From positions 19,337-83,336 of the forward strand of contig CALZUQ010000004.1 of NCBI GenBank assembly GCA_945829425.1: DNA of 64,000 bases, read 5' to 3'. The notes beneath the pieces were generated by a model. That model saw nothing but the letters and a program-made list of their open reading frames with translations, did not search any database and was not told the DNA's origin. The stretch is from an uncultured bacterium. Its GTDB lineage: Bacteria > Bacteroidota > Bacteroidia > Bacteroidales > Bacteroidaceae. Of this stretch, positions 30,554-54,282 are shown piece by piece (within the stretch, counting starts at the first letter, position 1; every line of letters starts with the position of its first letter). A program made the position numbers and the translations under genes.

Positions 30554-30910
30554 ATGAAAAAGATTGAAGCGATAATAAGAAAGACAAAGTTTGAGGACGT
30601 CAAGGAAGCCTTGCTCGACGCCGACATTGAATGGTTTTCATACTACGACGTGAGAGGTATAGGAAAGTCAAGGCAGGAACGCATATACCGTGGTGTCGTC
30701 TATGACACAAGCTCCATAGAGCGCACACTGGTGTCTATCGTGGTGCGCGACAAGAACGTGGAGAAAACCATTGAGGCGGTATCGAAGGCTGCTCATACAG
30801 GAGAACTCGGCGACGGACGTATCTTCGTCATTCCGGTGAACGACGTCGTACGCATACGTACCGGAGAGCGTGGCGACATAGCCTTATACAACGCCGAGAA
30901 GGAAGAATAA
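30554..30910 (+). CDS. Nitrogen regulatory protein P-II
   Basis: 118 aa; MKKIEAIIRKTKFEDVKEALLDADIEWFSYYDVRGIG, GDGRIFVIPVNDVVRIRTGERG. Confidence 0.95.
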   Translation: MKKIEAIIRKTKFEDVKEALLDADIEWFSYYDVRGIGKSRQERIYRGVVYDTSSIERTLVSIVVRDKNVEKTIEAVSKAAHTGELGDGRIFVIPVNDVVRIRTGERGDIALYNAEKEE

Positions 30911-30983
30911 GCCGGGACACTCACTACCTGTCTCGACAAAGGATAATAAGCCGGGACATTCACTACCTGTCCCGACAAAGGAT
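30906..30983. repeat. 39-bp x 2 tandem repeat, each unit containing a hairpin, between P-II gene and amtB
   Basis: AATAAGCCGGGACAYTCACTACCTGTCYCGACAAAGGAT twice; CGGGACA/TGTCYCG stems. Confidence 0.85.
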
Positions 30984-31127
30984 AACGAGTTTTTTAGGGT
31001 GGCGGCAGACCACCACCCCACTTTACAGCAACACAAACAACCACAAGCATCACTCTCGCTCTTCTGCACATGACAAAGGCCGTGGGGGTCAGGGGGTACT
31101 GATGCTCTCAAACAACGTTTTTTCATT

Positions 31128-32405
31128 ATGGACACAACAATAACTTTAGCTGAACTCAGCACAGGTATCAACACCGTATGGATGCTCTTGGCGGCAATGC
31201 TGGTATTCTTCATGCAGCCGGGCTTCGCCCTCGTAGAGGCGGGCTTCACACGCGGCAAGAACACCGCGAATATCCTTATGAAGAACTTCGTGGACTTCAC
31301 CTTCGGCTCTCTGCTCTTCTGGCTCGTAGGCTTCGGTCTGATGTTCGGTGCGGGCGACTTCGTAGGCATGCCACACTTCATCGACCTTGACATCATGGAG
31401 AAGCAGATAGACAACGGACTGCCTATCGAGGGTTTCCTCATCTTCCAGACAGTGTTCTGCGCCACGGCGGCGACGATAGTTTCGGGAGCCATGGCAGAGC
31501 GCACGAAGTTCTCCATGTACCTCGTATATACGGTTTTCATCAGCGTGCTCATATACCCTGTCTCAGGCCACTGGACATGGGGCGGCGGATGGCTCATGAA
31601 CGGTGAGGAGGGTTCTTTCATGATGAACCTCTTCGGCACTACGTTCCATGACTTTGCAGGCTCTACGGTGGTTCACTCTGTCGGCGGATGGCTCGCTCTC
31701 GTAGGAGCCTCAATACTCGGACCGCGTATCGGAAAATACGGCAAGGACAAGAAGTCGAAGGCTATTCCGGGACACAACCTCACGATAGCTGCCCTCGGAG
31801 TATTCATCCTCTGGTTCGGATGGTTCGGCTTCAACCCTGGCTCACAGTTGGCAGCAAGCACAAGTGCCGACCAGACAGCCATATCACACGTCTTCCTGAC
31901 AACAAACCTCGCAGCGTGTGCCGGAGGCTTCTTCGCTCTCGCAGTGAGCTGGCTGAAATACGGCAAGCCTTCACTCTCGCTGACACTCAACGGCATTCTT
32001 GCCGGACTTGTAGGCATCACGGCAGGTTGTGACATCGTGTCACCGCTCGGATCGGTCATAATAGGTGCTATCTGCGGCATTGTAATGATTCTCTCCGTAG
32101 ACTTCATCGACCACGTGCTGAAAATTGACGACCCTGTAGGTGCCAGCTCCGTACACGGAGTATGCGGCTTCCTCGGCACGGTGCTGACAGGATTCCTCGC
32201 TACAGAAGAAGGTCTCTGCTATTCCGGCAACGCCAACTTCCTCCTCGCACAGCTCTTCGGTGCTGTCGTAGTAGGTCTGTGGGCTGCTGCAGCAGGTTTC
32301 GTAATATTCAAGTCGCTCGACAAGATACACGGTCTCCGCGTCGACAAGCGCATTGAGGAGGAGGGTCTCGACATCTACGAGCACGGAGAGTCGGCATACA
32401 ACTGA
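31128..32405 (+). CDS. amtB: Ammonium transporter
   Basis: 425 aa; FFMQPGFALVEAGFTRGKN, DFAGSTVVHSVGGWLALVGA, ILWFGWFGFNPGS. Confidence 0.96.
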   Translation: MDTTITLAELSTGINTVWMLLAAMLVFFMQPGFALVEAGFTRGKNTANILMKNFVDFTFGSLLFWLVGFGLMFGAGDFVGMPHFIDLDIMEKQIDNGLPIEGFLIFQTVFCATAATIVSGAMAERTKFSMYLVYTVFISVLIYPVSGHWTWGGGWLMNGEEGSFMMNLFGTTFHDFAGSTVVHSVGGWLALVGASILGPRIGKYGKDKKSKAIPGHNLTIAALGVFILWFGWFGFNPGSQLAASTSADQTAISHVFLTTNLAACAGGFFALAVSWLKYGKPSLSLTLNGILAGLVGITAGCDIVSPLGSVIIGAICGIVMILSVDFIDHVLKIDDPVGASSVHGVCGFLGTVLTGFLATEEGLCYSGNANFLLAQLFGAVVVGLWAAAAGFVIFKSLDKIHGLRVDKRIEEEGLDIYEHGESAYN

Positions 32406-32496
32406 TAAAACCGACACACCCCTGCCTCACTTAAGGGAACGCTACAATAAAAAACAACATACATAAAATATATACACAAAACAATTCTTTAAGATT

Positions 32497-34686
32497 ATGT
32501 CAGATTTAAGATTCAGAGTTGTCGAGACGGCTTTCAAGAAGAAGGCGTCGGCAGTAGAGTCACCTATGGAACGCCCAAGTGAATACTTCGGCAAGTATGT
32601 CTTCAACCGCGAGAAGATGTTCAAATATCTTCCAAGCAAGGTTTACGCAAAGCTTATCGACGCCATAGACAACGGCGCTGCGCTTGACCGTTCGATAGCC
32701 GACGAGGTGGCTGCCGGCATGAAACGCTGGGCTACGGAACTCGGTGTCACACACTACACCCACTGGTTCCAGCCGCTTACGGAAGGAACGGCAGAGAAGC
32801 ATGACTCTTTCGTAGAGCACGACGGCAAGGGTGGCATGATGGAAGAGTTCAGCGGAAAACTCCTCGTACAGCAGGAGCCGGACGCTTCGTCATTCCCTAA
32901 CGGTGGCATACGAAACACCTTCGAGGCACGCGGATATTCCGCATGGGACCCTTCGTCGCCTGTCTTCGTCGTTGACGACACGCTCTGCATCCCGACAGTC
33001 TTCATAGCCTATACGGGTGAGTCGCTCGACTATAAGGCTCCGCTTCTCAAGGCTCTCCGCGCTGTCAACAAGGCGGCTACAGACGTCTGCCATTACTTCA
33101 ATCCGGAAGTGAAGAAGGTCGTGGCATACCTCGGATGGGAGCAGGAGTATTTCCTCGTCGATGAGGGACTGTATGCCGCACGCCCTGACCTCCTCCTCAC
33201 CGGCAGGACACTCATGGGACACGAGGCAAGCAAGAACCAGCAGCTTGAAGACCATTACTTCGCCGCAATACCGACACGCGTGGCAGCCTTTATGAAAGAC
33301 TTGGAGATACAGGCTCTGGAACTCGGCATACCTGTCAAGACACGCCATAACGAGGTGGCTCCGAACCAGTTTGAGCTGGCACCGATATTCGAGGAGTGTA
33401 ACCTCGCCGTAGACCATAACATGCTCATCATGTCGCTCATGCGGCGTGTGGCACGCAACCACGGCTTCCGCGTCCTGCTCCACGAGAAACCCTTCAAGGG
33501 CATCAACGGCAGCGGAAAGCACAACAACTGGTCGCTCGGAACAGATACGGGAATACTGCTCCACGCACCGGGCAAGACTCCTGAAGACAACCTCCGCTTC
33601 ATAACATTCGTGGTGAACACCCTCATGGCGGTTTACCACCACAACGGACTGCTCAAGGCGTCGATCATGAGCGCAACAAACGCTCACCGCCTCGGTGCCA
33701 ACGAGGCTCCACCAGCCATCATCTCAAGCTTCCTCGGCACTCAGCTCACTGAAGTGCTCGACCACCTGGAGGTCAGCGAGGATGAAGACCTCGTGGCTCT
33801 CAGCGGAAAGCAGGGCATGAAGCTCGACATACCGCAGATACCGGAGCTGTACATCGACAATACCGACCGCAACCGTACGTCGCCGTTTGCATTCACAGGA
33901 AACCGCTTCGAGTTCCGTGCGGTAGGCAGTGAGGCAAACTGCGCAAGCGCGATGATTGCACTCAACTCTGCCCTCGCCGACCAGCTGATACGCTTCAAGA
34001 GCGACGTCGATGCTCTCATAGCCTCAGGGTTGGAGAAGGAGAAAGCCATCATACGCATCATACGCCGGTATATCAAGGAGTGCAAGCCTATACGCTTCGA
34101 CGGAAACGGATATAGCGACGAGTGGAAGGAAGAGGCAGCAAAGCGAGGACTCGACTGCGAGACAAGCTGCCCGCTGATTTTCGACAACTACCTCAAGGAG
34201 GAGAGCATAGCAATGTTCGAGGCTGCCGGAGTAATGACACGCAAAGAGCTGGAGGCACGCAACGAAGTGAAATGGGAGACATACACGAAGAAGATACAGA
34301 TTGAGGCACGTGTCCTCGGCGACCTCGCCATGAACCATATCATACCTGTCGCTACGGAATACCAGAGCAGGCTTATCGACAACGTCTATAAACTGCGTGA
34401 GCTGTTCACGGCAGAGAAGGCGGAACGCCTCTCCAGCGAGAACATGAAGCTCATCGAGGAGATCGGTGAACACACAATATACATCACTGAGCATGTCCAC
34501 ACCCTCATCGAGGCACGTAAGGTGGCGAACAAGATCGAGACGGAGCGTGAGAAGGCTATCGCCTATCACGACACTATCTCTCCTATGCTGGAGGAGATAC
34601 GTTACCACATCGACAAGCTTGAGCTCATCGTCGACAACAAGATGTGGACACTGCCAAAATACCGCGAGCTTTTGTTTATCAGATAG
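32497..34686 (+). CDS. glnN: Type III glutamine synthetase
   Basis: 729 aa; FVEHDGKGGMMEEFSGKLLVQQEPDASSFPNGGIR, RHNEVAPNQFELAPIFEECNLAVDHN, FKGINGSGKHNNWSLGT. Confidence 0.96.
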   Translation: MSDLRFRVVETAFKKKASAVESPMERPSEYFGKYVFNREKMFKYLPSKVYAKLIDAIDNGAALDRSIADEVAAGMKRWATELGVTHYTHWFQPLTEGTAEKHDSFVEHDGKGGMMEEFSGKLLVQQEPDASSFPNGGIRNTFEARGYSAWDPSSPVFVVDDTLCIPTVFIAYTGESLDYKAPLLKALRAVNKAATDVCHYFNPEVKKVVAYLGWEQEYFLVDEGLYAARPDLLLTGRTLMGHEASKNQQLEDHYFAAIPTRVAAFMKDLEIQALELGIPVKTRHNEVAPNQFELAPIFEECNLAVDHNMLIMSLMRRVARNHGFRVLLHEKPFKGINGSGKHNNWSLGTDTGILLHAPGKTPEDNLRFITFVVNTLMAVYHHNGLLKASIMSATNAHRLGANEAPPAIISSFLGTQLTEVLDHLEVSEDEDLVALSGKQGMKLDIPQIPELYIDNTDRNRTSPFAFTGNRFEFRAVGSEANCASAMIALNSALADQLIRFKSDVDALIASGLEKEKAIIRIIRRYIKECKPIRFDGNGYSDEWKEEAAKRGLDCETSCPLIFDNYLKEESIAMFEAAGVMTRKELEARNEVKWETYTKKIQIEARVLGDLAMNHIIPVATEYQSRLIDNVYKLRELFTAEKAERLSSENMKLIEEIGEHTIYITEHVHTLIEARKVANKIETEREKAIAYHDTISPMLEEIRYHIDKLELIVDNKMWTLPKYRELLFIR

Positions 34687-34914: not shown

Positions 34915-36483
34915 ATGGAAACGAAGCAACTGAAGCGACTGCCCGTGGGCATACAGACATTCTCAAACATCGTTGAGGACGATATGCTGTATATTGACAA
35001 GACAGAGTATATCTGGAACATGATACACCTCAGCAAGTATATCTTCCTGAGCCGTCCAAGGCGGTTCGGCAAGTCGTTGCTTCTATCTACGCTGCAGGCA
35101 TATTACGAGGGAAGAAAGGACTTGTTCAAGGGACTCTTTATCGAAACGGTGGAGAAGGAATGGACGGAACATCCCGTGCTGAGATTCGACATGTCTATGG
35201 GAAAGCACATGGAGAAGGATCAGCTGGAGAGGTATCTCGGCAACCGTCTTGCGGTATATGAAGAGAGGTATGGCATCACGCAGCCTGCCACAGACAATAA
35301 TGACCGATTCACTGCGTTGATTCAGGCAGCATACGAGCAGACAGGCAAGAAAGTAGTCATACTGATTGACGAGTACGACGCCCCGTTGCTCGACGTGGTG
35401 CATGAGAAAGAGACATTGCCTGTGCTCCGCAATGTCATGCGCAATTTCTACTCTCCGCTGAAAGCATCCGACCCATATCTTGAGTTTGTGTTCCTCACGG
35501 GCATCACGAAATTCTCCCAGCTCAGCATCTTCAGCGAGCTGAACAACCTGATGAATATCAGTATGGACGAGGAGTATGCAGCAGTTTGCGGAATTTCAAA
35601 GGAAGAAATGCTGACACAAGCCCATGATTATATCGAGAGATTGGCACAAAAAAACAAATGGACGTATGAAGAGACTGTATCACTCCTGGCACAGCAGTAT
35701 GACGGTTATCACTTCACATGGCCTTCGCCCGACATTTTCAATCCCTTCAGCCTGCTCAACGCATTAGCAAGAAATCGCATTGAGAACTATTGGTTTGCCT
35801 CGGGTACTCCGACGTATCTCATTGAGATGCTGCGCAAGTTCAATATCGTGCCGTCAAGAATTGGCTGTGGAAGTGTACAGGCAAAATCCTTTGATGCTCC
35901 CACTGAGAATATGAAGAATATAACTCCGTTACTATATCAGAGCGGTTATATCACCATCAAAGGATATAATCCAGTGTCAAAAAACTACAAGCTCGACATA
36001 CCTAACAATGAGATACAGGCAGGACTGATGGAAAGCCTTCTGCCCAATTACGTGCATGAATATGCCGACGAGGGAAGTTCTATGGTAGGTGATATGTACG
36101 AAGCCTTATACAATGACGACCTGGACGGGATGTTCCGCCTCCTTCAGGCCTACCTCCTCACCGTGCCTTACTGCGACAACGCCAACTCTGAAGGTCACTA
36201 CCAGCAGATGCTCTACGTCATCTTCTCCCTCTTCGGCAGATATGTGGATGTGGAGGTGCACACTCCCACAGGTCGTGTGGATATAGTGATGAAGACCGCC
36301 AAGGCATTGTATCTTTTCGAGCTGAAGCTCAACAAGAGTGCCGAGACTGCCATGAAGCAGATTGATCTGAAGGACTATGCCTCAAAGTTTTCATTATGTG
36401 GTCTGCCCATTGTAAAGGTGGGCATTAACTTTGACCCCGATAGACGCACAATAGGCGACTGGAAAATCAACCAGACAGAATGA
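34915..36483 (+). CDS. AAA-ATPase-like / PD-(D/E)XK nuclease superfamily protein (DUF1703 type)
   Basis: 522 aa; YIDKTEYIWNMIHLSKYIFLSRPRRFGKSLLLSTLQAYYEG; C-terminal GRVDIVMKTAKALYLFELKLN (D..ExK). Confidence 0.93.
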   Translation: METKQLKRLPVGIQTFSNIVEDDMLYIDKTEYIWNMIHLSKYIFLSRPRRFGKSLLLSTLQAYYEGRKDLFKGLFIETVEKEWTEHPVLRFDMSMGKHMEKDQLERYLGNRLAVYEERYGITQPATDNNDRFTALIQAAYEQTGKKVVILIDEYDAPLLDVVHEKETLPVLRNVMRNFYSPLKASDPYLEFVFLTGITKFSQLSIFSELNNLMNISMDEEYAAVCGISKEEMLTQAHDYIERLAQKNKWTYEETVSLLAQQYDGYHFTWPSPDIFNPFSLLNALARNRIENYWFASGTPTYLIEMLRKFNIVPSRIGCGSVQAKSFDAPTENMKNITPLLYQSGYITIKGYNPVSKNYKLDIPNNEIQAGLMESLLPNYVHEYADEGSSMVGDMYEALYNDDLDGMFRLLQAYLLTVPYCDNANSEGHYQQMLYVIFSLFGRYVDVEVHTPTGRVDIVMKTAKALYLFELKLNKSAETAMKQIDLKDYASKFSLCGLPIVKVGINFDPDRRTIGDWKINQTE

Positions 36484-36777: not shown

Positions 36778-36894
36778 GAAAAAAAATAGACTCCAAACCA
36801 CCGGTAGATTTTCATTCCTTTTTATTAAAAATGTCGAATTGTTTGGAAATGTGAAAGAAAATAGGTAACTTTGCCGCTGAACAATATAATCATC

Positions 36895-38673
36895 ATGGTT
36901 ATGGACGAGAAAAAGGTAAAAGAAGCGGTTAAGCGAATACCCTACGGTATGATGAACTTCGTGGCTGTGCGCGAGGACAACTATTATTATGTCGATAAGA
37001 CAAGGTTTATAGAAAAAGTGGAAGATTCGAACAGATACTTTTTCTTCATCCGCCCCCGCCGTTTCGGCAAGAGTCTCACCATATCGATGTTGCACCACTA
37101 TTATGATATTAACGCAGCTGATAAGTTTGAGAGGTTGTACGGCGACTTGTATATAGGCAAGCATCCTACACCCAACCACAACAAGTATCTCATAATATAT
37201 CTCAATTTTGCCGTGGTAAATGCCGACTTGGGCAATTATCGCAGTGCGTTGGATGCAATATGCAACACTGAGTTCAATTATTTCTGCGATGTCTATGAGC
37301 AGTACTTGCCCAAAGGCATTAAGGAAGAGATGAACAAGAAGAATGGTTGTGTGGAACAGCTTGACCATCTCTATAAGGAAGCGCGAAAGACGGATGCGAA
37401 GATCTATCTCTTCATCGATGAGTATGACCACTTCACCAATCACATCCTCTCCGATGCAGCCCGCCTCGACGAATATCGGGGCGAGACTCACGGCACTGGC
37501 TATCTGCGAACTTTCTTCGACACCATAAAGGCAGGCACTTATTCGAGTATAGAGCGTGTCTTCATCACGGGCGTAAGTCCCGTAACCCTTGATGACCTCA
37601 CCAGCGGCTTCAACATCGGCACAAACTACTCACTCTCCTATGGCTTCAACCAAATGGTGGGGTTCACCGAAGAAGAGGTGCGCGAGATGCTGACATACTA
37701 TTCGCAGCACTATGAGTTCAACCACACCATTGATGAACTAATCGAGATAATGAAGCCGTATTACGACAATTACTGCTTTGCCAAGGAAGCATACGGCGAG
37801 ACGACGATGTACAACTCGAATATGGTCCTCTCATTTCTTTATAAATATATAGACAACAGGTGCTGGATTCCGGACAGAATGTTGGAGGAGAATATCCGTG
37901 TTGACTACAACAAGCTGCGTATGCTCATCCGCAAGGACAAGGAGTTTGCACACGATGCCTCCATCATCCAGACATTGGTGTCGAAAGGCTACGTGACGGG
38001 AGAACTGAAGGAAGGATTCCCGGCAGAGGACATCGCCGACAACGACAACTTCATCAGTCTGCTCTACTATTTCGGCATGGTGACTATCGGCGGATTCTAT
38101 CGTGGAAAGCCTAAGTTCGTCATTCCCAATGAAGTCGTGCGCGAACAGGTTTATTCATATCTTCTCGACAACTATCACGACAACCATCTCTACACCGACA
38201 TGGATGAGCTGAGTCGATTGGAGGAGAACATGGCATACGATGGCGAGTTCAAGCCATTCTTCCAGTTTATTGCCGACAGCATATATACCTTTGCCTCGCA
38301 GCGCGACCGCCAGAAGGGCGAGTCCTTCGTGCATGGCTATACCCTCGCCCTTACAAGCCTCTGCTGCTACTACCGTCCCATCTCCGAGCTTGACAACCAG
38401 AACGGCTATGCCGACGTCTTCCTCCGCCCACGGTGTGAGATATTCAAGGATATGGAACACTCGTATATCATCGAGCTGAAATATCTTAAGAGTAATGCGA
38501 CGGAGGCTGAGGTTAACGCCGCCATAAGGCAAGCCGAGGCTCAGGTCTGCCGCTATGCCGAGACGGTGAATGTTAACGACAACATCGGACATACCACCCT
38601 CCACAAGGTATATGTAGTATATCGGGGTGTGGAAATGGTGGCGTGCGATGAAATACAGATACTCAACATTTAA
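36895..38673 (+). CDS. AAA-ATPase-like / PD-(D/E)XK nuclease superfamily protein (DUF1703 type), second copy
   Basis: YYYVDKTRFIEKVEDSNRYFFFIRPRRFGKSLTISMLHHYYD; C-terminal DVFLRPRCEIFKDMEHSYIIELKY. ORF-track start 36871 lies in the promoter; ATG 36895 or 36901 preferred. Confidence 0.92.
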   Translation: MVMDEKKVKEAVKRIPYGMMNFVAVREDNYYYVDKTRFIEKVEDSNRYFFFIRPRRFGKSLTISMLHHYYDINAADKFERLYGDLYIGKHPTPNHNKYLIIYLNFAVVNADLGNYRSALDAICNTEFNYFCDVYEQYLPKGIKEEMNKKNGCVEQLDHLYKEARKTDAKIYLFIDEYDHFTNHILSDAARLDEYRGETHGTGYLRTFFDTIKAGTYSSIERVFITGVSPVTLDDLTSGFNIGTNYSLSYGFNQMVGFTEEEVREMLTYYSQHYEFNHTIDELIEIMKPYYDNYCFAKEAYGETTMYNSNMVLSFLYKYIDNRCWIPDRMLEENIRVDYNKLRMLIRKDKEFAHDASIIQTLVSKGYVTGELKEGFPAEDIADNDNFISLLYYFGMVTIGGFYRGKPKFVIPNEVVREQVYSYLLDNYHDNHLYTDMDELSRLEENMAYDGEFKPFFQFIADSIYTFASQRDRQKGESFVHGYTLALTSLCCYYRPISELDNQNGYADVFLRPRCEIFKDMEHSYIIELKYLKSNATEAEVNAAIRQAEAQVCRYAETVNVNDNIGHTTLHKVYVVYRGVEMVACDEIQILNI

Positions 38674-38690: not shown

Positions 38691-38766
38691 TTTCGCAAGC
38701 TCAAGGAAACTCCTTCCCTTTGGTCAGTGGCTCCAGAGGACAAGTCTCCCCCCATTATTATGAATG

Positions 38767-38816
38767 ATGCGGTAAAGCCATGCGGTTTGAGAGATTGCCG
38801 CATGGCATTACCCCCC
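38767..38816 (+). terminator. Hairpin (ggtaaagccatgcgg..ccgcatggcattacc), duplicated near 51025-51075
   Basis: Inverted repeat with 14/15 matching stem; near-identical copy downstream is 15/15. Confidence 0.65.
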
Positions 38817-38899
38817 CCTATCGTATGCCATTTATCGTTTTTCTTATACTTTTTTACCAAATAATTCTTCCTTTTTTTGCTCGTTTTATTTTTTTTCTG

Positions 38900-38907
38900 T
38901 AAATTTG
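38900..38907 (+). promoter_or_regulatory. -7 element (TAAATTTG) for the BMP-like lipoprotein operon
   Basis: TAnnTTTG about 30 nt before ATG 38936; duplicated at 51159. Confidence 0.6.
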
Positions 38908-38935
38908 CAGCAGTATTGGTATTATTAGTTAGGAT

Positions 38936-40042
38936 ATGCTTATATATATATACTGTAACATTTTTCACGTTATACTCTTCCTGTTTGTAAGTGGGGGGTG
39001 CAAAAAACGTCTGTCGACAAGTAACATAGCGTTATTTGCCTTATTCACTTTTACCTTATTTTCTCTTACGGCTTGTTCGGACAATGATGACGATGACACG
39101 TCTTCCGCATTGACTTCCGCCAATGTGGTGGAGGTAGTGTTCTCGCCATCGAGCTTCGGCGACTTGGGTTATAACGACATCATACTCACGGGACTTGAGG
39201 AGTCGCGCAAGCGTCTCGGCTTCGACGTGGTGATGCATGTACCACCGTCGGTGGAGGACGGTATCGCCATCTACAACAAATGGGCGCAGAAGGATGCCAA
39301 GGGCGAGCGACGACTCTTCATCTTCGCCAGCAACCAGTATGAGAGTGCCTTGCGCAACTCTACTGTGCGCCCCTCGGATGCCAACAGCACGGTGCTGCTC
39401 TACGAGACCCACCAGCCCATCGAAGGGATATACACCTTCCGCATAGGGATGTATGGTGCGGCTTATCTCATCGGAGCATACACCGCCCTAACCAATAATG
39501 AGGAATCCGACTACAAGGCAGCCGTACTCGCAGCCAATCCCTTCGACCGTAATGTTGACGGAGCGGCACAGGGATTCCGCGACGGGTTCCTTGAGGCAGG
39601 AGGAGCTGATGCCACCATATCCTATATCTCCGACAAGGACGGCGACGGCTACAACATGCCTGACGAAGCCTACGACCTCTGCACCCGACTTTACGAGTCC
39701 GGCCACACCTTTTTCTTCCCCGTGGCAGGCGGCAGCAACAAAGCTGTATATCAGTTCTCGCGCAACAATCTTCTCGGCTCTGCAGGCATCGACGGTGACA
39801 TGTCTGCCTATTCTGGTTTGATGAACTGTTCGCTCGTAAAGAATATCGGCAGTGCCACCGGCGACTTCATCGCCCTGTGGCTCGGCAAGAAGGAAATCCC
39901 CCAACATCAGGATTTCCTCTGGGATTCGGGCTACGTCAGCGTCATCTATTGTCATGATTGTAAGGAAACTGACGCACAAGGCATTGAAACATTCAAGAAC
40001 AATATTATAGGAAAGGAGGCAGAGTATGAAAAGAGCAAGTAA
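38936..40042 (+). CDS. BMP/PnrA-like substrate-binding lipoprotein
   Basis: 368 aa; lipobox SLTACSDNDDDD; VEVVFSPSSFGDLGYNDIILTGLEESRKRLGFDV and later VDGAAQGFRDGFLEAGG resemble the BMP family. Confidence 0.65.
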   Translation: MLIYIYCNIFHVILFLFVSGGCKKRLSTSNIALFALFTFTLFSLTACSDNDDDDTSSALTSANVVEVVFSPSSFGDLGYNDIILTGLEESRKRLGFDVVMHVPPSVEDGIAIYNKWAQKDAKGERRLFIFASNQYESALRNSTVRPSDANSTVLLYETHQPIEGIYTFRIGMYGAAYLIGAYTALTNNEESDYKAAVLAANPFDRNVDGAAQGFRDGFLEAGGADATISYISDKDGDGYNMPDEAYDLCTRLYESGHTFFFPVAGGSNKAVYQFSRNNLLGSAGIDGDMSAYSGLMNCSLVKNIGSATGDFIALWLGKKEIPQHQDFLWDSGYVSVIYCHDCKETDAQGIETFKNNIIGKEAEYEKSK

Positions 40043-42131
40043 AATATGGGCAGTTAACTTCCCGATATATATAATAATGTGTATCTTCCTGCTGTTCTCC
40101 TGCTCCGATGATAACAACAACGCCACCTCGGGCCCCGAGGTCAGCTCCAACCGCGAGGTGAGGATTGCCGTGGTGCTCAAGAAGGGCGACCGCCAGGAGC
40201 GCGTGCAACGCATACTCGACTTGGCTCGCGAGAATATCACCATGGCACGGGGCGGAGTCGTGCCATCATACGAATACTACGACGAGGACACCACTACCCT
40301 CGCTTCCTTGGCGGTGGAACTCGCCTCGCGCGAGGACATTGCCGCCGTGGTGGGATGCTATGACGACCAGCACACCAAGACCCTCGCCTACGAGTGCATC
40401 AAGACCGACAAGACCATGTTCACTTTCAACACCTCGCAGGAACTTGCGCGCATCTTCGGTGAGCACGGCAACTACTGGGGACTATCCGAGAGCGACATCA
40501 CACAATGCGAGATACTGCTGTCAATTATATCGAAAGCCGCAAATGCTGACGTGGCACTCCTTGCCTGCGACAACGAATACGGACAGACCTTCGTGGATTG
40601 GTTTGCCTTCCAGGCTTCAGAGATGGGACTCAATCCCGTGGGCATCGCCACATACAAGGACAAGTCGGAGATTCCCGACGCCTATCGCAAGGCATGTGCC
40701 AGTCATCCTGTCTTCACCCTGTGCGTGCCCAACAACGCAGAAGAGGCTAATATAATGTATGAATGTACCAAGATGGATGATTTCGCCTACTGGACTATGC
40801 CTTTCTTCACCGACCGTGCCTACGAACCCGCCATTCTGAAGAACGAGGGAGTTATGGGACTCAACCTCGTGGCTGACCCCACGTCGGGATTCAGTGTCAT
40901 ATATAAGGCACGCTTCGGCGAAGCTCCCATCCATGGCGAAGCAGAGCTGTATGATGCCATCATGCTCACCTGTCTTGCAAGCCGATATGACGAGGAGCAT
41001 AATCTCAACAACCTCAACCTTGCCATAGGCACCCTGCTCTACTACCACTCCGACAGTCAGGGCGGATGGATGTCGGGCAACATGAAGCAGATTTTCGAGA
41101 CGATTGCCGAAGGTGGTGTTCCCGAGGTGAGCGGTGCCGTGGGCAAGCTCGACTTCGATCCCAAGAACTACACGCTCATCACCCATTCCACCTACGATTA
41201 CTGGATGGTGTATGAAGGAAAGTTTCTCTCGCTCAACTATATGAAGCGTTCCGAGGGCGAACACTCCTCGTCGCCCATCGTCAGCTGGGAGTGGGACAAG
41301 ACCTACCAGCAGCAGTTCGACGAGCACATGTCCGACATTGGCTATCCTGCCCTCACGGGCAACAAGGCGGTCATCATTGCCGCTTCGGGCGGATGGGAGA
41401 ACTACCGCTTCCAGGCCGACGCGCTCGAATACTACCAGATGCTCCGCAGTGCGGGCTATAGCGACGACGACATCATTCTCATCATGTCCGATGACCTGGC
41501 GCAGAACGCCAACAATCCCGACAAGGGAGTGGTGCGCCGCTCGGTGGATGGAGACAACCTGTATAAGGATGTTGTCGTTGACTATCGCCTTGAGGACATC
41601 ACCTACAACGACCTTGCCGTCATCTTCTCGGGCAAGGCAGACGTTGCCCATCCCGAAGTGCTCGACAGTGGCACAGGCGACAACGTGCTCTTCTTCTGGA
41701 GCAGCCACGGCACTCAGGCAGGACTTGCCCTTGGCAACATCTACAATGTGTCGGGCAAGCAGATGGCGCGCATACTGCAGAAGATGAGCAACGAGCAGCG
41801 CTTCCGCAAGATGATGTGGATAGTGGAGGCATGTTATGCCGGCGGAGTGGCAAAGGAGTGCGAGGGCATTCCCGGACTGCTCGTGATGACGGCAGCCAAT
41901 GCAAACGAGTCGTCGAAGGCCGACCTGTGGTATGCCCCCTACGGCGTGTATATCACCAATCGCTTCACCTCCTCCATCATCTCCCGTCTGAAGTCCGACC
42001 CTGCGACATCTCTTCGCGACCTCTACAACGTGGCGTTCACCGGAACGTTAGGTTCGCACGTCACGATATATAATGCCGACAACTACGGCAACTTGTATCA
42101 GAACACGATGAGGGAATTCTTTAGAAATTAG
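40026..42131 (+). CDS. Lipoprotein: type-1 periplasmic binding domain fused to legumain-like (C13, clan CD) cysteine peptidase
   Basis: 701 aa; lipobox LLFSCSDDNN; Peripla_BP-like N region (AAVVGCYDDQHTKTLAYECIKTDKTMFTFNTS); C region NKAVIIAASGGWENYRFQADALEYYQMLRSAGYSDDDIILIMSDDLA...NVLFFWSSHGTQAG (His)...MMWIVEACYAGG (Cys). Confidence 0.9.
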   Translation: MKRASKIWAVNFPIYIIMCIFLLFSCSDDNNNATSGPEVSSNREVRIAVVLKKGDRQERVQRILDLARENITMARGGVVPSYEYYDEDTTTLASLAVELASREDIAAVVGCYDDQHTKTLAYECIKTDKTMFTFNTSQELARIFGEHGNYWGLSESDITQCEILLSIISKAANADVALLACDNEYGQTFVDWFAFQASEMGLNPVGIATYKDKSEIPDAYRKACASHPVFTLCVPNNAEEANIMYECTKMDDFAYWTMPFFTDRAYEPAILKNEGVMGLNLVADPTSGFSVIYKARFGEAPIHGEAELYDAIMLTCLASRYDEEHNLNNLNLAIGTLLYYHSDSQGGWMSGNMKQIFETIAEGGVPEVSGAVGKLDFDPKNYTLITHSTYDYWMVYEGKFLSLNYMKRSEGEHSSSPIVSWEWDKTYQQQFDEHMSDIGYPALTGNKAVIIAASGGWENYRFQADALEYYQMLRSAGYSDDDIILIMSDDLAQNANNPDKGVVRRSVDGDNLYKDVVVDYRLEDITYNDLAVIFSGKADVAHPEVLDSGTGDNVLFFWSSHGTQAGLALGNIYNVSGKQMARILQKMSNEQRFRKMMWIVEACYAGGVAKECEGIPGLLVMTAANANESSKADLWYAPYGVYITNRFTSSIISRLKSDPATSLRDLYNVAFTGTLGSHVTIYNADNYGNLYQNTMREFFRN

Positions 42132-42191: not shown

Positions 42192-45100
42192 ATGAAACAG
42201 AAACGACCACTTAAGCCCGGGTTCTTCGGGCTGCTAATGGGACTTCTCATGCTGTTTGGCTCAACTACGTTGGGTCATGCCCAGGATAAAGCCGCAAGGG
42301 CAGCCTGGAAATCATGGGAACAGAAGTTGAAGTATGATGCCATCTACTACTCTAACGGGGATTATGTGACCGAAACCGGTGAGGGCGGGCACAAGATGTA
42401 CCATGTGCAGGTAGCAGAAGCCGAGGCTGGCATCGAACATGCCGTTATCTATAATGATATCGGCGAAGCGTGGAACTATCGCACCGTGCGTGTCACTCCA
42501 TGGGCTATCGCGATGAAACCGACGCTGATAGACATCACCTTCGCCGACTGCTCAAGCAACACCGCGGGTACCAACGCATACGCATGGATAAGCATTGACC
42601 TTGCCGAGGAGTGCTTCGCTGACAACAAGAACCTCGAGGCAGTCTATATGAAGTATAAGATGTATGCCGACGACGACCACACCATCATGCTTAAGCCCAA
42701 AGACGTGCGTGCAGGAAAAAACATCTTCTGGAACAACACCAAACCGAAGATATATGTAGATTGGGAGTATTATCAGGACTACCTCAACGACTCTAAATGG
42801 GGAGTATATAAAGACCAGATAGTGCCCACCACCACTATGCGTGAGGCAGAAAAGACATTTGAAGGCGTGGGCTATGCCCGCGACCATGTGGAGGATGGCA
42901 AGGGCTCGTTCAGGAAAGAGTCCGCAGGAGATAAGGACATCTCTTACGCCCATGTCATCGGTGCGTCGGAGTCGGATATAAGTAAAGTCAACGGCGCTAT
43001 CCTTATATATAATGACTATGGTTGGGATGCTCCATATATCATTACACGAATATGGTCGCATGCCTACGATGGTTCCTCCGCTCTGAAGTCGGTGAAGTTT
43101 CAGGACGTGCGTAACGGCAAGTCCTACAAGGACATGAACATCACCATAGGCGACTATGCCTTTGCCAACTGCCCCAACCTTCTCACCTTCGACCTCGTGA
43201 TGAAGGTAGCGTCAACGAAAGAGATGAAGGATCTGACTCCTGCCAACATCAAGATAGGCAAGCACGTGTTCGACGGCTCGCCCAATGTTCAGATCCGCGT
43301 GCCCCTCTTTCAGAAAGCCGCATTCGAGGCTGACGAGAACTGGAAGGAGTACGCCCACCTGTTTGTGCCCTACGTGGAGGATATTACCAACTCTGACGTT
43401 GAAGAGGGCGGTGTCCACTACAGCTATATCTATAATTCCAACGGCAACTACGTGACCACGAAGGTGACAGACCCCAAAGACGGGAATCACATTCTCTATC
43501 ATGTGAAAGCCACCAGCGTGGATAACGACAAGGATGCGATAGTTGTGTATAACGACATCGGCACAGCTTGGTACTACCGCACAGTGCTCTTTGACAACAA
43601 TGCACTCAACGGCAAGAGCACTCTCAAGACCATCTCCTTTGCCGACTGCGTGTCAAATCTTCCTTATAGTCAGGCATGGGTTTGGCCACGCATCGAGCTT
43701 GGCAAGACCTCAATGCAATATTGCCCCAGCCTTGAGGAGGTGCAGATGAAATATAAGATGTATGCCGGTGACGACCATACCGTCATGCTGCGACCGGGAA
43801 CCATAGTTCCGCAGGAGGGCTTCAACTTTGAGGGCAGCCCCAAGGCCAAGATTCTTGTAGATCCCGAATACTACAGCTCATATATTAACGCCCCCGAATG
43901 GCAGGGCGTAAAGGACCGCATCGTCTCCACACCGAAGATGCGCGAGGCTGAGTTCAAGGAATACGGTATGCAGTATGCCCGCGACAACAACGAGGATGCC
44001 ACGGGATCATACAAGACCACCACGAGCAACAACGGCAATACCACTGTATATAAGGTGCACGTAATAGGTCCTGATGCCGACTACATCAAGAACCACGACG
44101 GCATTGCCTATCTCTACAAGGACATAGGTCAGACCTGGGCATATACCACCACTAAGATCTGGGCACGCTCGTTCGACGGTTGTGATGACCTGAAATCGGT
44201 GAAGATATACGACATCATGCCCTCGGCAACCAAGAACTACCTCGACCTCAACATAGAGATTGGCGACTCGGCTTTCGTCAACTGCCGCAACCTTAAGTTC
44301 TTCGACGTTGTGATGAACTCGGTGGATGAGAAAGACCACTTCGAGGTCATCCATCCGTCGCAGATGCCTATAGGCAAAGATGTCTTTGCCGGCAGTCCCA
44401 AGGTGCGCATACGCGTGGCTTCATCGGCATATACCGAGTTCCTCAACGACGAGAAATGGAGCCAGTATGCTAACCTTATAGAACCATACGACTTCGAGAT
44501 GGCGGACTATAAGGAGGGCGGAGCCATATACAGCATGTGGCGCACTGAAGATGGTCAGACTTTCTATAGCAGCAAGGATGCAGAGGAGATGGAAAAGATT
44601 GTGGAGCCTTGGGCTGCTGCATTCCGCAACCTCGAACCAGATAAACTCTTGGCTCTTGACACTGATGAGACCCTGTGGTACACACATATCACCGGTCTTG
44701 ATGATGACTATCTGAAGAAACACGATGGAGAGTTGAGAATATACAATGACATCGGTACATCTTATGACTTCAAGACCCTCGCCATCGACAGCATTCAGTT
44801 GCGTGGCAATGAGAATATTAAGAAGATTGTCTTCGAGGATTGCGCATCGGGTTCAGAAAATGCCAATACCATGCTGAAGATGGTCATCCACAACGGTGCT
44901 TTCAAGGACTGCAAGAATTTGAAGGAGCTCAACATGTTCTATCTCTCTACAAAGGGTACAAACGAGATGAAATACCTGACTCCTGAGGATGTTTATATCG
45001 GTGAGAACGTGTTCGACGGAGTGGATAAGGATTTCCGCATTGTTGTTGCTCCCGAGGCATATACGGATTTCATTACAGATGCCAACTGGGGGCAGTATAA

Positions 45101-48100
45101 GGAAATGATAGTTGCATGTGACTATGTGCCTACTGCCGAAGATGACATAGTGGAGGAAGGCGTTACATACGGATATGCCGCCAATACGCTTAACTCCCTG
45201 CCAACATCAACAGTGGCTCATCTACAATCGTCTATGTGGAATCTCGCTACTTTGGCTGGAGAGGTTGTAATAGCAGTATTAACGGACGGTCTGGCGCAAG
45301 CAGGAATTAGTGGTGCGTCAACTGCTTCAAGTACCGTAGTGACAGCATTGTCACGAACAATATTCAAGCCAGCAGCACTTATTGGGCATAGTCTTTTTAT
45401 CGCAGGTCAACCTGCAACAGAAGCAGCATATAATGCCGCCATCCATGGTATAGGCTTATGTTTTGGAGTTCAATCTGCATTGAACACTCATGCGGCACTT
45501 GCAATAAGTTCAAATATTGAGTCAAATATACGACATAACACGTGGATGATTTCAGGAAGCGGATGGATCTTGACAGAGAACAAACATCCAATATATCACA
45601 TGTATGTGAAGGATGTTGACGACAGCAAGACCGACCTTACCATCTATAATGATATAGGTACTGCTTACAACTACAGTACTATAGGCTTTGGAGATCGTGC
45701 ATTCTGGAACAAGACCAATCTTATGCGCATTGGATTCAAAGACCAGCTGCGTGGCGACACCGAGGCCCGCAAGGCAATGTGCATCGCCATTCCCGACTCT
45801 TGCTTCCTGGGCTGCAGCAACCTCCGTATGCTCGACCTCGTGCTCAAGAGCAACGAGGACGGCAGCGAGCAGGCTCTCGGTCCGGAGAACTTCCTGATTC
45901 TTGGCGACAAGATATTCGAGGGATGCCATCCCGACCTGAAGATTCGCATCGGACGCGAGCGTCTTGACGACTTCCTCGCCAACGAGACTTGGCAGCCATA
46001 CAAGAATATGTTCGAGGTGGTTGACATAGAAGACAAGGTATCGTTTGAGGAAAAAGGGGTTCAGTATGCCCGTGAGTTTGAGAACGCATCGCGAGTATAT
46101 CAGACATTCATCGAGGACCACACCATCGAGCATCTCAAAGTGGTTGGTGCAACAGATGATATAGACAAGCAACAAGGCGAGGTGTCGTTGTGGAACGATA
46201 TAGGTAGATACAACAACTACAAGCTCGACCGCGTGAAATATAAGGCGTTCTATAACAATCCCAAGGTGAAGGGACTTTCCTTCTGGGATGTGCTTGGAGG
46301 CGATGCTTACACAAACCTCAACGTGACGCTGCAAGATTCTTGCTTTGCTGATTGCAAGAACCTCGAGTATGTCAACATGCTTTATATGGTGACAGACGGC
46401 TTCAACACCGCCAAGGAGATGCTGCCCGACTCAGTTCATCTGGGCAAAGGCGTGTTTGATGGCTGCGACAAGCTGAAGATTAAGATGATGTGGAATGCCA
46501 CCGACAAGTTCCTCGCCGACTCTACATGGGCAAACTATAAGGACAAGTTTGCTCCGTGCTTCTTCAAGCCGGCAGACGAGGAGGTGGAGGATGCTCTCGA
46601 TGATGCTGGTCTTTCCTACAAGTCTCCCATCAGCGACACATGGGACGTGATGGATGCCACTCAGATGAAGAATATTGAGTCTGTACGTGACCAAATAGGC
46701 AAGAGGGAAATCAAGGCATTTGAGGAATTTAAGGCATTTGAGACTGTTGGTCTTGAGCGAGTGCCAATAGAGATGTTCCGTAACCAGAAAAACTTGCAGT
46801 TGGTTAAGATTCCTTCAACAGTGAAGACCATCTGCCAGTCTGCCTTTGAGGGATGCGGTTCATTGCCAAGAATAGAGATTCCTGAGTCTGTGACTTCTAT
46901 TGAGAATTCGGCTTTCAAAGACTGCTCGACACTTAAAAGCATAAGGATGATGTCTTCAGTACCCGCCACATTGTCAGGCGAACCATTTGCTGGTCTTCCT
47001 TCTGATTATGTCATCTACGTTCCCGACACGGCTTCGGTGGTTGCTGCTTATAAGGAAAAGTGGCCTGAGTATGCCGATCATATTCAGGAATATAAATTCA
47101 AGTCAACATTTAAGACCGTCACTGTTAAAGAAGCTGGTACACTCGCAAAGGAACTTGGCTTCTATTCCGCTACTGGTACTGATGAGTCTGGTGCGATAGC
47201 TCATTATAGCATCAGTGGTGAGTTCTCTCAGTATGATAGTTTGAAGATTGTTGGTCCTCTAAATAGTGATGACTTTGCTGCTATTCGCTCTCTTGGTGGT
47301 AGAACTCCTATACATTGCAATATAGAGCCGCGTGGACGATTGAAATATCTCGACTTGTCTGATGCAGACATTGTAAAAGGCGGTTTGTTCTATTCAACAG
47401 AGAATTATGGTGTCGATATTTACCGATCAACAAAAGATGATGTAATCGGTCTGGTAATGTTCGAAAAACTGCCATACCTCGAGACTCTCATTCTTCCCAA
47501 CTCTGCAAAGAGCATAGAGGATGAGATGGCATGGAAGTGCCCGAATCTGAAGCGCATCGTCTTCGGTCCGAACATCAACGACATCGAGGAGGACATCATC
47601 CAGGAAACTCCAAACCTGACAGAAATGATATTCCTCGGTCCTGTGCCAAAGACGATGGACAAGGAGATGTTCTACGGCAAGGCAAGCCGCATAGTGGCAT
47701 ATACCACCAATGCCGAGCAAGCCAACTATACAGCCGCAGCACGTATATATAATAATGTGGATACCATCGCCACAGGATTTGAGGACGACCGCACTCTGCA
47801 GGTAATGGCAAAGAAGGGTATCTATTTGGGTACTGACCTTGCCAATCTGAACTCTTTCGAAAATGTGGTCAACGGTGAGGGGATAGGAAAGTTTATGGAG
47901 CTGATATATGCCTTAAACGTGACAACGCTCGGCGACAACTCGCTGAACGGATGCTCTGAGATGGACGTGGTGTCATTGCCTTACAACTTGAAGTCAATCA
48001 CTGCTGATGCCTTCAAGGGCTGCACAAGTCTGAACACGGTGTATGGAACATGCTCCGAGATACCAGAATTGGCAGCAGACGCCTTCCGCGACCTGCCTTC

Positions 48101-49958
48101 TAACTTCGTCATCATCGTGCCTATGGGCAAGGAGAACGAATGGCGTGAGGCATGGAAACAGTATGCCGACCATATCATCGGCTACCGCCCTGACGAGAAG
48201 TCGGAGTTGACGGAGGTTACACTGACTAAGGCAGGAACGCTGGGTGCGAAGCTCGGTCTTGAGGTGACTATGGACGCTCCAGACAACGTGGGCAGAATCA
48301 GCGGTGACTACTATAAGATCAGGGGACTGAAGGTAAACGGTAAAATCAATGGTAAGGACATAGCCGTGATACGTATGCTCGGTGGTCGTGACGAGGAAGA
48401 AGGTGACGAGGTTGCACTCTCGCGCATGACATATCTCGACCTCTACAATGCCGAGATAGTGACCGACCCGAACAATATCTGTTACAACCGCGACAGCTAC
48501 AACGACTATGTGGAGCGCGACAACGAGGTGCCCGAGAACATGTTCTGGAAGCTCGACAACATCCGCACGCTCATACTGCCGAAGAAGGCCACGAAGATCA
48601 ACGAGGAGGCTTGCTATGACATGCTCAACCTCAAGACAGTTGTCATCGGCGACGAGACAACATATATCGACAACGATGCCTTCGGCGAATGTCCAGGTCT
48701 TGAGAACATGGTGTTCCTCTGCAACAAGAAGGCAGTACTCCACGAAGATGCCTTCAGAGACCCTGCAAGCGACAAGAACTTCCAGGTGAAGAACATGTAC
48801 GTGCCGTTCAGTTATGTGAATGACTGCAGGTCGGACAAGGAATACACCGAGCACTCGATGAACATCTGGACTAAGTATCCTGACGATGGTGTCTTCCGTG
48901 CCTACGGCCGTAACCTCGTAATGACAGATGATGATCTGCAGAACGTAAGCAACATCGACGGATGGTTTGACGACTACGAGAGCATTACTGACCTATCGAC
49001 GCTCTCTAAGACAGTCATCGACTCGCTGAAGACTGACGTTCTTGCCAAGCAGCCTAAGTTGCAGAAGATCAGTCTGCCGAAGACTCTCACAACCGTTCAG
49101 GAGAATGTCTTCTCCAATAACGGCAACCTCGTCTGGGCTGATTTCACCCGCTGCTCGGAGGCTGGAGCCTCGCTTGCAGTTAACGCCGGAAAGCTCGGTG
49201 CTGCCAAGAGCACTCTCGTGTATATGCCTTCATCGTTCGGCTCTTCGGATAAGGCCAACGTGGTATATGGTGCCGATGGCGCAAGGGAGTGCGCAAGGTA
49301 TGAACTGACTGACTCGCGCGATTATGACGTGCCGATGGAGTTCACCGCCAAGGAGATAAGCTACGACCGCAACTTCAAGAAGCGCAAAGCACCTTACACC
49401 ACCTGTCTGCCGTTCGACTGCGACGTGCCTGCAGGCTGCAAGGCTTACACACTCTCAGGTCGTTCGGACAACGAACTCATCTTCACCCAGGTGTCTGACA
49501 TGAAGGGCGAGAAACCTTACCTCATCATCGCCGAGGATGCCGACGCAAAGATTGAGCAGACCTCCAACGTGAAGATTCCTGTCACTCCTACCCGTCTGCC
49601 GCAGGTGAACGCACCCGGCTACTCTATGCTCGGCACTCTCTCGTATATCGACAACGATAAGGCGGCTGGCATGAAGGCCTACGTGCTGCAGCCCGACGCC
49701 CAGTGGCATCCCGTAAGCAACGACGGCAAGAGCAACATAGCCCCCTATCGCGCCTTCATACAGGTGAACGGCACAATGGCTACGCGCGCCCTCCAGTCGT
49801 GGTTTGAGGATGTTGATGGCACGACGGGCGTGACAGTCCTGAAGACCATCGACTTCGACGGCAAGGAACGCTACTACGACCTCAGCGGCCGCCAGCTCAA
49901 TGGCGCACCGAAGCAGGGAGTGTATATTCACAACGGGAAGAAAATTATTAGGAACTAG
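42192..49958 (+). CDS. Giant secreted surface protein: seven ~185-aa YNDIG modules plus C-terminal BspA-like LRR region
   Basis: 2588 aa; signal peptide; repeated (I/V)YNDIG..Y..T motif; LRR_5-like VKIPSTVKTICQSAFEGCGSLPRIEIPESVTSIENSAFKDCSTL; tail YYDLSGRQLNGAPKQGVYIHNGKKIIRN. Confidence 0.88.
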   Translation: MKQKRPLKPGFFGLLMGLLMLFGSTTLGHAQDKAARAAWKSWEQKLKYDAIYYSNGDYVTETGEGGHKMYHVQVAEAEAGIEHAVIYNDIGEAWNYRTVRVTPWAIAMKPTLIDITFADCSSNTAGTNAYAWISIDLAEECFADNKNLEAVYMKYKMYADDDHTIMLKPKDVRAGKNIFWNNTKPKIYVDWEYYQDYLNDSKWGVYKDQIVPTTTMREAEKTFEGVGYARDHVEDGKGSFRKESAGDKDISYAHVIGASESDISKVNGAILIYNDYGWDAPYIITRIWSHAYDGSSALKSVKFQDVRNGKSYKDMNITIGDYAFANCPNLLTFDLVMKVASTKEMKDLTPANIKIGKHVFDGSPNVQIRVPLFQKAAFEADENWKEYAHLFVPYVEDITNSDVEEGGVHYSYIYNSNGNYVTTKVTDPKDGNHILYHVKATSVDNDKDAIVVYNDIGTAWYYRTVLFDNNALNGKSTLKTISFADCVSNLPYSQAWVWPRIELGKTSMQYCPSLEEVQMKYKMYAGDDHTVMLRPGTIVPQEGFNFEGSPKAKILVDPEYYSSYINAPEWQGVKDRIVSTPKMREAEFKEYGMQYARDNNEDATGSYKTTTSNNGNTTVYKVHVIGPDADYIKNHDGIAYLYKDIGQTWAYTTTKIWARSFDGCDDLKSVKIYDIMPSATKNYLDLNIEIGDSAFVNCRNLKFFDVVMNSVDEKDHFEVIHPSQMPIGKDVFAGSPKVRIRVASSAYTEFLNDEKWSQYANLIEPYDFEMADYKEGGAIYSMWRTEDGQTFYSSKDAEEMEKIVEPWAAAFRNLEPDKLLALDTDETLWYTHITGLDDDYLKKHDGELRIYNDIGTSYDFKTLAIDSIQLRGNENIKKIVFEDCASGSENANTMLKMVIHNGAFKDCKNLKELNMFYLSTKGTNEMKYLTPEDVYIGENVFDGVDKDFRIVVAPEAYTDFITDANWGQYKEMIVACDYVPTAEDDIVEEGVTYGYAANTLNSLPTSTVAHLQSSMWNLATLAGEVVIAVLTDGLAQAGISGASTASSTVVTALSRTIFKPAALIGHSLFIAGQPATEAAYNAAIHGIGLCFGVQSALNTHAALAISSNIESNIRHNTWMISGSGWILTENKHPIYHMYVKDVDDSKTDLTIYNDIGTAYNYSTIGFGDRAFWNKTNLMRIGFKDQLRGDTEARKAMCIAIPDSCFLGCSNLRMLDLVLKSNEDGSEQALGPENFLILGDKIFEGCHPDLKIRIGRERLDDFLANETWQPYKNMFEVVDIEDKVSFEEKGVQYAREFENASRVYQTFIEDHTIEHLKVVGATDDIDKQQGEVSLWNDIGRYNNYKLDRVKYKAFYNNPKVKGLSFWDVLGGDAYTNLNVTLQDSCFADCKNLEYVNMLYMVTDGFNTAKEMLPDSVHLGKGVFDGCDKLKIKMMWNATDKFLADSTWANYKDKFAPCFFKPADEEVEDALDDAGLSYKSPISDTWDVMDATQMKNIESVRDQIGKREIKAFEEFKAFETVGLERVPIEMFRNQKNLQLVKIPSTVKTICQSAFEGCGSLPRIEIPESVTSIENSAFKDCSTLKSIRMMSSVPATLSGEPFAGLPSDYVIYVPDTASVVAAYKEKWPEYADHIQEYKFKSTFKTVTVKEAGTLAKELGFYSATGTDESGAIAHYSISGEFSQYDSLKIVGPLNSDDFAAIRSLGGRTPIHCNIEPRGRLKYLDLSDADIVKGGLFYSTENYGVDIYRSTKDDVIGLVMFEKLPYLETLILPNSAKSIEDEMAWKCPNLKRIVFGPNINDIEEDIIQETPNLTEMIFLGPVPKTMDKEMFYGKASRIVAYTTNAEQANYTAAARIYNNVDTIATGFEDDRTLQVMAKKGIYLGTDLANLNSFENVVNGEGIGKFMELIYALNVTTLGDNSLNGCSEMDVVSLPYNLKSITADAFKGCTSLNTVYGTCSEIPELAADAFRDLPSNFVIIVPMGKENEWREAWKQYADHIIGYRPDEKSELTEVTLTKAGTLGAKLGLEVTMDAPDNVGRISGDYYKIRGLKVNGKINGKDIAVIRMLGGRDEEEGDEVALSRMTYLDLYNAEIVTDPNNICYNRDSYNDYVERDNEVPENMFWKLDNIRTLILPKKATKINEEACYDMLNLKTVVIGDETTYIDNDAFGECPGLENMVFLCNKKAVLHEDAFRDPASDKNFQVKNMYVPFSYVNDCRSDKEYTEHSMNIWTKYPDDGVFRAYGRNLVMTDDDLQNVSNIDGWFDDYESITDLSTLSKTVIDSLKTDVLAKQPKLQKISLPKTLTTVQENVFSNNGNLVWADFTRCSEAGASLAVNAGKLGAAKSTLVYMPSSFGSSDKANVVYGADGARECARYELTDSRDYDVPMEFTAKEISYDRNFKKRKAPYTTCLPFDCDVPAGCKAYTLSGRSDNELIFTQVSDMKGEKPYLIIAEDADAKIEQTSNVKIPVTPTRLPQVNAPGYSMLGTLSYIDNDKAAGMKAYVLQPDAQWHPVSNDGKSNIAPYRAFIQVNGTMATRALQSWFEDVDGTTGVTVLKTIDFDGKERYYDLSGRQLNGAPKQGVYIHNGKKIIRN

Positions 49959-50996: not shown

Positions 50997-51445
50997 GACA
51001 AGTCTCCCCCCATTATTATAATTGCTGCGGTAAAGCCATGCGGTTTGAGAAATTGCCGCATGGCTTTACCCCCCCCCTATCGTATACCATTTATCGTTTT
51101 TATTATCCTTTTTTACTAAATAATTCTTCCTTTTTTTGCTCGTTTTATTTTTTTTCTGTAAATTTGCAACAAAATTGGTATTATTAGTTAGGATATGCTT
51201 TTTTATATATACTGTAACATTTTTCACGTTATCCTCTTCCTGTTTGTAAGTGGGGGGTGCAAAAAACGTCTGTCGACAAGTAACATAGCGTTATTTGCCT
51301 TATTCACTTTTACCTTATTTTCTCTTACGGCTTGTTCGGACAATGATGACGATGACACGTCTTCCGCATTGACTTCCGCCAATGTGGTGGAGGTAGTGTT
51401 CTCGCCATCGAGCTTCGGCGACTTGGGTTATAACGACATCATACT
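50997..51445 (+). repeat. Duplicate of 38739-39186 (hairpin, promoter, N-terminus of BMP-like lipoprotein)
   Basis: Near-identical sequence by direct comparison, ending at ..aacgacatcatact. Confidence 0.92.
51195..51445 (+). pseudogene. Truncated N-terminus of a BMP-like lipoprotein
   Basis: MLFYIYCNIFHVILFLFVSGGCKKRLSTSNIALFALFTFTLFSLTACSDNDDDD... identical to 38936 copy until junction, then unrelated frame. Confidence 0.9.
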
Positions 51446-51589
51446 GACCACAGTGTGGATTTCGAATCAACATCGTTCGACAGGAACGCTATGCCCGAGG
51501 ACATCACCAACTGCACCGAGGCGCAAGCCGACGTCATGGCAGACCTGTTCTACAAGTGTGCCGTAGCTGCCAACAGCAAATTCCATTGA
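51446..51589 (+). pseudogene. C-terminal fragment of an unidentified protein
   Basis: Open frame DHSVDFESTSFDRNAMPEDITNCTEAQADVMADLFYKCAVAANSKFH*, starting exactly at the junction, in a different frame from the BMP remnant. Confidence 0.6.
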
Positions 51590-51612
51590 TACACCTTAAA
51601 AAAATAACAGTT

Positions 51613-54210: not shown

Positions 54211-54217
54211 TGTGCGA

Positions 54218-54256: not shown

Positions 54257-54282
54257 GAAGCCATCAATCAACGAAGTCAATT

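Follow-up and report, generated by a model that had tools for sequence, protein, structure and literature searches.

A binding domain fused to a C13 protease, with a Bmp-family partner, as a candidate surface sensor-protease of gut Prevotella

Introduction

Binding proteins of the leucine/isoleucine/valine (LIV) type and of the PnrA/Bmp family normally deliver their ligands to BPD_transp_2 permeases of ATP-binding cassette (ABC) importers. What purpose would be served by such a domain when it shares a polypeptide with a protease? The question is raised by a stretch of 64,000 nucleotides from contig CALZUQ010000004.1 of a gut Prevotella (‘the window’), where an open reading frame (ORF) of 701 aa at 40026-42131 on the plus strand specifies a lipoprotein with a LIV-type domain in its N-terminal part and a legumain-like domain of peptidase family C13 in its C-terminal part, here termed PBP-C13 (PBP, periplasmic binding protein). 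An original prediction, made from the DNA letters, had given exactly these coordinates and the lipobox, and every motif that it quoted is present. It viewed the product as a sensor-protease in one chain. The two domains do reside in one lipoprotein, but the chain is not a stand-alone device: its gene and that of a second, unrelated binding lipoprotein make up a two-gene module, which in one clade also belongs to an operon for pore-formers of the MACPF superfamily. The answer to which we incline is that the two-gene unit is a ligand-responsive surface sensor-protease that cuts neighboring surface proteins, most likely the MACPF lipoproteins where these are encoded in the same operon.

A protease and a binding domain in one conserved lipoprotein

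The ORF is real, far beyond chance, since it is conserved across Bacteroidales and is under purifying selection. In comparisons with the closely related Prevotella sp. P5-50 and P2-180, the ratio of nonsynonymous to synonymous substitution rates (dN/dS) is ~0.18 for the whole gene, for both of its parts (0.17-0.18 for the N-terminal one) and for the partner gene introduced below, and both PBP-C13 domains are therefore maintained. Among 301 genomes sampled from the family, 45 contain 57 strong C13 genes, nearly all with frames of ~690-850 aa; a Bacteroidales-wide sample has full-length relatives in six genomes besides the window's own, and a phylum-wide sample, the window's own gene excepted, has weak C13 matches only. 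One genome of the same genus (G032) has at least seven full-length paralogs, some in tandem (loci L072 and L073, and others on further contigs); the same genome has a chimera of the N-terminal end of a MACPF gene and a C13 fragment. No phage or viral record carrying PBP-C13 was found.

For the C-terminal half, the assignment that had been proposed is borne out. Residues 448-687 match Peptidase_C13 in the Pfam search at E=3.7e-49, with a score of 168 bits where 22.8 is the cut-off, legumains are the closest solved structures by sequence (E=4.5e-31), and the AlphaFold model, built from 38 homologs with a mean predicted local distance difference test (pLDDT) of 88.1 and a predicted template modeling score (pTM) of 0.85, has a C13 half that superposes on human legumain 7fqh (Foldseek E=2e-21, target-normalized template modeling score 0.90). 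The predicted His/Cys dyad, His561 and Cys603, is unvarying in all 38 homologs, as are Asn459, Arg461 and Ser630, and Glu601 is replaced, if at all, by Asp. With the cut-off exceeded, the fold caspase-like and the dyad in its His-Gly and Glu/Asp-x-Cys contexts, the protein is a member of family C13. It shares with legumain (asparaginyl endopeptidase; MEROPS C13, clan CD) the fold, the catalytic pair, the NYR motif and the equivalents of Ser216 and Glu187. Unlike legumain it is a bacterial lipoprotein with a fused binding domain, and as it ends ~15 residues past the catalytic domain it has no C-terminal activation peptide or stabilization domain. The S1 pocket is also incomplete. Of the legumain trio Arg44-Glu187-Asp231, the first two are kept as Arg461 and Glu601, but the Asp231 position is Asn645 in the window protein and Asn in 35 of the 38 family members; the residue that corresponds to legumain His45 is Phe in the window protein.

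Cutting is not the sole activity in family C13. In GPI8 and the plant asparaginyl ligases the comparable domain is a transpeptidase or ligase, and the module could on that precedent move or anchor surface proteins. The family profile matches GPI-anchor transamidase (GPI8/PIGK) over the catalytic domain second best, at E=2e-52, nearly equal to legumain (6e-60), and asparaginyl ligases as well. Unlike GPI8/PIGK, PBP-C13 lacks a transmembrane helix after the catalytic domain and lacks transamidase partners; no acceptor or sorting-signal system is recognizable in the loci, and the linked candidate proteins are already lipid-anchored on their own. We regard a ligase role as very unlikely.

The LIV-type domain was more elusive. 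In the window protein itself it falls below the Pfam threshold (Peripla_BP_6, 18.9 against 31.7 bits), but homologs exceed theirs (Peripla_BP_6/ANF_receptor), and a 12-member profile of the N-terminal half alone leads to the branched-chain amino acid binding proteins 3td9 (E=3.5e-10) and 4gnr (E=4.8e-8), which bears out the earlier identification. That profile also matches taste-receptor ligand domains, and the full-length profile those of metabotropic glutamate and calcium-sensing receptors. The likeness to class C receptors, to LIV-type binding proteins and, for the partner, to PnrA/Bmp nucleoside-binding lipoproteins is one of sequence profile matches; unlike all of these, the output module here is a protease, and carrier genomes are without the cognate permease family.

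Does the binding domain respond to a ligand, or does it serve as an address tag, docking a constitutively active protease on a fixed ligand such as a glycan, a peptide or a partner protein? Positions 114, 136 and 263, which by alignment to LIV-type proteins would contact the amino acid backbone, are largely conserved in the family: Ser is at 114 in 31 of 38 sequences and Asp at 263 in 30, and position 136 is Thr or Ser throughout the 38. They differ among lineages, the window clade having Asp instead of Ser at 114; the C13 part is better conserved than the N-terminal part among the aligned homologs, and a legumain-type prodomain to silence the enzyme is lacking, all of which would suit mere docking. 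Set against this are the invariance of Arg142, Asp157 and Glu199 of the binding domain and the strong selection on the N-terminal part that its dN/dS denotes, and the pTM suggests a defined arrangement of the domains in the model. Docking alone is unlikely, though less so than a ligase role.

A two-gene module

Directly upstream of the PBP-C13 gene, and overlapping it by 17 bp, is a gene for a second lipoprotein (lipobox LTAC, mature start CSDNDDDD) that scores 28.4 bits with PF02608 against a cut-off of 24.1, and whose family profile matches the PnrA/Bmp structures 7x0r, TmpC and BmpA. Among the 44 full-length PBP-C13 genes whose neighborhoods were read, a Bmp-family gene is immediately upstream on the same strand in 42, with most frames overlapping; one of the two loci without it has a truncated gene. 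It follows from this near-obligate pairing that the Bmp-family and PBP-C13 genes form one functional unit. The partner and the LIV-type domain represent different families, and recent duplication of one binding module from the other was rejected, there being no detectable profile similarity between them. The promoter match listed in Table 1 is judged against TTTG-N19-21-TAnnTTTG, the Bacteroidota consensus.

In this phylum, lipoproteins exported to the surface typically have acidic residues after the Cys. PBP-C13 has such a signal right behind the lipobox Cys (C-SDDNNN), and by a loose rule so do 22 of 37 homologs. Judged by these signals, both proteins are probably lipid-anchored and outward-facing on the outer membrane.

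Table 1. Features of the two-gene module (window coordinates)
Feature	Position	Strand	Basis or remark
TTTG-N20-TAAATTTG, promoter match of Bacteroidota type, upstream of both genes	38876..38907	+	pattern match
PnrA/Bmp-family binding lipoprotein gene	38936..40042	+	PF02608; 368 aa from first ATG
GGAGG, ribosome-binding-site-like, within the end of the Bmp gene	40015..40019	+	sequence
PBP-C13 lipoprotein gene	40026..42131	+	701 aa; Pfam profiles, AlphaFold, Foldseek
Signal peptide and lipobox LFSC, Cys26 then SDD	40026..40103	+	sequence; Cys26 invariant in 38 homologs
Type 1 (LIV/ANF) periplasmic-binding-protein domain	40152..41255	+	residues 43-410; profiles, model
Peptidase C13 (legumain/GPI8) catalytic domain, without legumain C-terminal prodomain	41358..42116	+	residues 445-697
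Asn459-Tyr-Arg461, S1 pocket, equivalents of legumain Asn42/Arg44	41400..41408	+	invariant in 38; alignment
Catalytic His561	41706..41708	+	invariant in 38 homologs
Catalytic Cys603	41832..41834	+	invariant in 38 homologs

The 5′ end of the module has a counterpart elsewhere in the window. A 443-bp segment, 38739-39181, comprising the Bmp promoter and 5′ end, recurs nearly identically 12 kb downstream at 50997-51440, where an unrelated, out-of-frame tail is attached to it (ORF 51195-51566); from its sequence, this copy looks like a recombination relic. The copy retains a perfect 8-bp inverted repeat, CCATGCGG...CCGCATGG, that is located upstream of the module at ~38777-38806 and may be a terminator or a regulatory element.

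Import considered

Since both binding families usually serve ABC importers, nutrient capture has an obvious appeal: a surface protease would digest protein, and the binding domains would collect the amino acids or nucleosides thus set free, so that they could be imported. The position of the window's copy, 3′ of a cluster for a PII protein, an ammonium transporter and a type III glutamine synthetase (30554-34686), adds to it. The main evidence comes from the permease. The window's genome lacks BPD_transp_2, and so do all but one of the 21 other carriers, for a total of 21 of 22, three of them single-contig, but the family is found in 12 of 14 control genomes. The absence of this permease family from the carriers is the strongest evidence that a role in import is unlikely and that the binding domains are there for sensing or docking, not for supplying a transporter; it led to rejection of PBP-C13 as the substrate-binding protein of an ABC importer, and strengthens a doubt about uptake voiced earlier because no permease gene is adjacent. 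The nitrogen genes have no counterpart at other module loci and were for that reason dismissed as functional neighbors. What does recur beside the module is MACPF genes rather than SusCD or porters. Nutrient capture is thus already largely refuted, and we consider it improbable.

Association with MACPF operons in relatives

At many loci the module is the end of an operon that begins with 1-3 genes for MACPF lipoproteins, some with BACON domains. Profiles confirm the assignment, with matches to insecticidal MACPF proteins of bacteria, to perforin and to complement C6-C9. A MACPF gene is present within 12 kb of 16 of the 57 C13 genes, and there are 33 C13-MACPF pairs where ~0.4 (0.42) would be expected. 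By genome, MACPF occurs in 17 of 45 with C13 and in 13 of 256 others, for an odds ratio of 11 and p=1.5e-8, with the relatedness of the genomes making the p value indicative only. The MACPF label clusters strongly on the tree of the protein, needing 5 changes compared with 14.6 when shuffled, and none of 500 shuffles gave a value as low.

Often between the MACPF genes and the module is the gene for a divergent lipoprotein, CL2, for which no Pfam or PDB relative was found and whose fold model is weak (pLDDT 58.6) and without a significant PDB match. Prevotella P5-50 has it intact and P2-180 has it with an internal deletion; the window lacks it, and a candidate there at 57705-59411 was rejected as the signal peptide alone had matched; that gene is for a C11 protease. 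A role for CL2 in immunity or targeting is a guess by analogy, prompted by the CDCL operon, which encodes a lipoprotein that blocks the CDCL pore (PMC11169675).

Beside some modules (L062, L063, L069, L133 and L143) the MACPF gene is replaced by one for CL9, a ~740-aa lipoprotein family whose N-terminus is BACON-like and which has no further known domain; other loci have neither. The idea that CL9 is a hidden MACPF protein was discarded, as alignment is limited to the N-terminal BACON-like stretch and there is no PDB relative.

How the module might work

There are precedents for surface proteolysis of toxins in Bacteroidales. The C11 lipoproteins fragipain and doripain, which like PBP-C13 are clan CD cysteine proteases on a lipoprotein, activate or release the toxins Bft, Fab1, BcpT and CDCL (PMC9308784, PMC8406203, PMC11169675). 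They differ in family, in cutting after Arg/Lys, and in having no reported binding domain or Bmp-like pairing. The BSAP MACPF lipoproteins and the two-component CDCL toxins are lipoprotein pore-formers of the same superfamily as the module-linked MACPF proteins (PMC12853789, PMC11169675). The CDCL operon includes an immunity lipoprotein and its toxins require a surface clan CD protease (PMC11169675); for BSAP, a 2025 study left open whether the MACPF assembly trigger is proteolysis or something else (PMC12853789). Unlike these systems, relatives of the module have up to three MACPF genes per operon together with a sensor-protease candidate of their own, and the window's genome has no MACPF genes.

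In the sensor-protease that we somewhat favor, the LIV-type domain and the Bmp partner would jointly form a head that senses a ligand, perhaps as a heterodimer in the manner of class C receptors; ligand binding would control or position the C13 protease, which would then cut nearby surface proteins. The operon's own MACPF lipoproteins would be the likeliest substrates in the MACPF clade, cut so as to be activated or freed from the cell; fragipain and doripain act in this way on other toxins of Bacteroidales. In the lineage of the window, which has no MACPF gene, the sensor-protease would need other targets, unless it is an orphan. A more elaborate proposal, and a tentative one, is of a complement-like system where paired sensing lipoproteins control a C13 protease that activates up to three pore-formers encoded in the same operon. 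Its further components, with the fast-evolving lipoprotein as immunity or targeting factor and the window as the bare sensor-protease core, are conceivable to the same limited degree.

Several considerations weigh against the sensor-protease interpretation. The window's copy branches outside the MACPF-rich clade, and its genome (an assembly 92.7% complete) has no MACPF match, so the toxin link is not directly applicable to it. Gene clustering does not reveal which protein is the substrate. Cleavage specificity is uncertain, and because the Asp231 position is Asn in nearly all of the family a legumain-like preference for Asn is not to be assumed. Asp at 114 means that the ligand of the window clade may differ or be lost.

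Other features of the window

A second clan CD surface protease is encoded at 57705-59411, a 568-aa lipoprotein that matches Peptidase_C11 (clostripain/fragipain) at E=5e-28. Directly behind the PBP-C13 gene is a run of genes for BspA-type leucine-rich-repeat proteins (42192-49958; 51556-56805; 59576-62167), one of 2588 aa, that is not at the corresponding place in Prevotella P5-50. Just upstream of the module are neighboring genes for two AAA-ATPase_like plus PDDEXK_9 proteins (34915-36483 and 36871-38673).

Implications

Each single domain is known already, as are toxin-activating surface clan CD proteases; no record of the PBP-C13 fusion, the Bmp pairing or a C13-MACPF operon was found in the literature accessible to our search, with subscription literature and domain-architecture databases lying beyond it. 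Activation of Bacteroidales toxins by surface proteases is established, and what a sensor-protease would address is its timing. If the interpretation is correct, type 1 binding proteins would serve as sensors for extracellular proteases instead of as transporter parts, and a small molecule of the gut would decide when a pore-former is armed, a switch that is directly testable.
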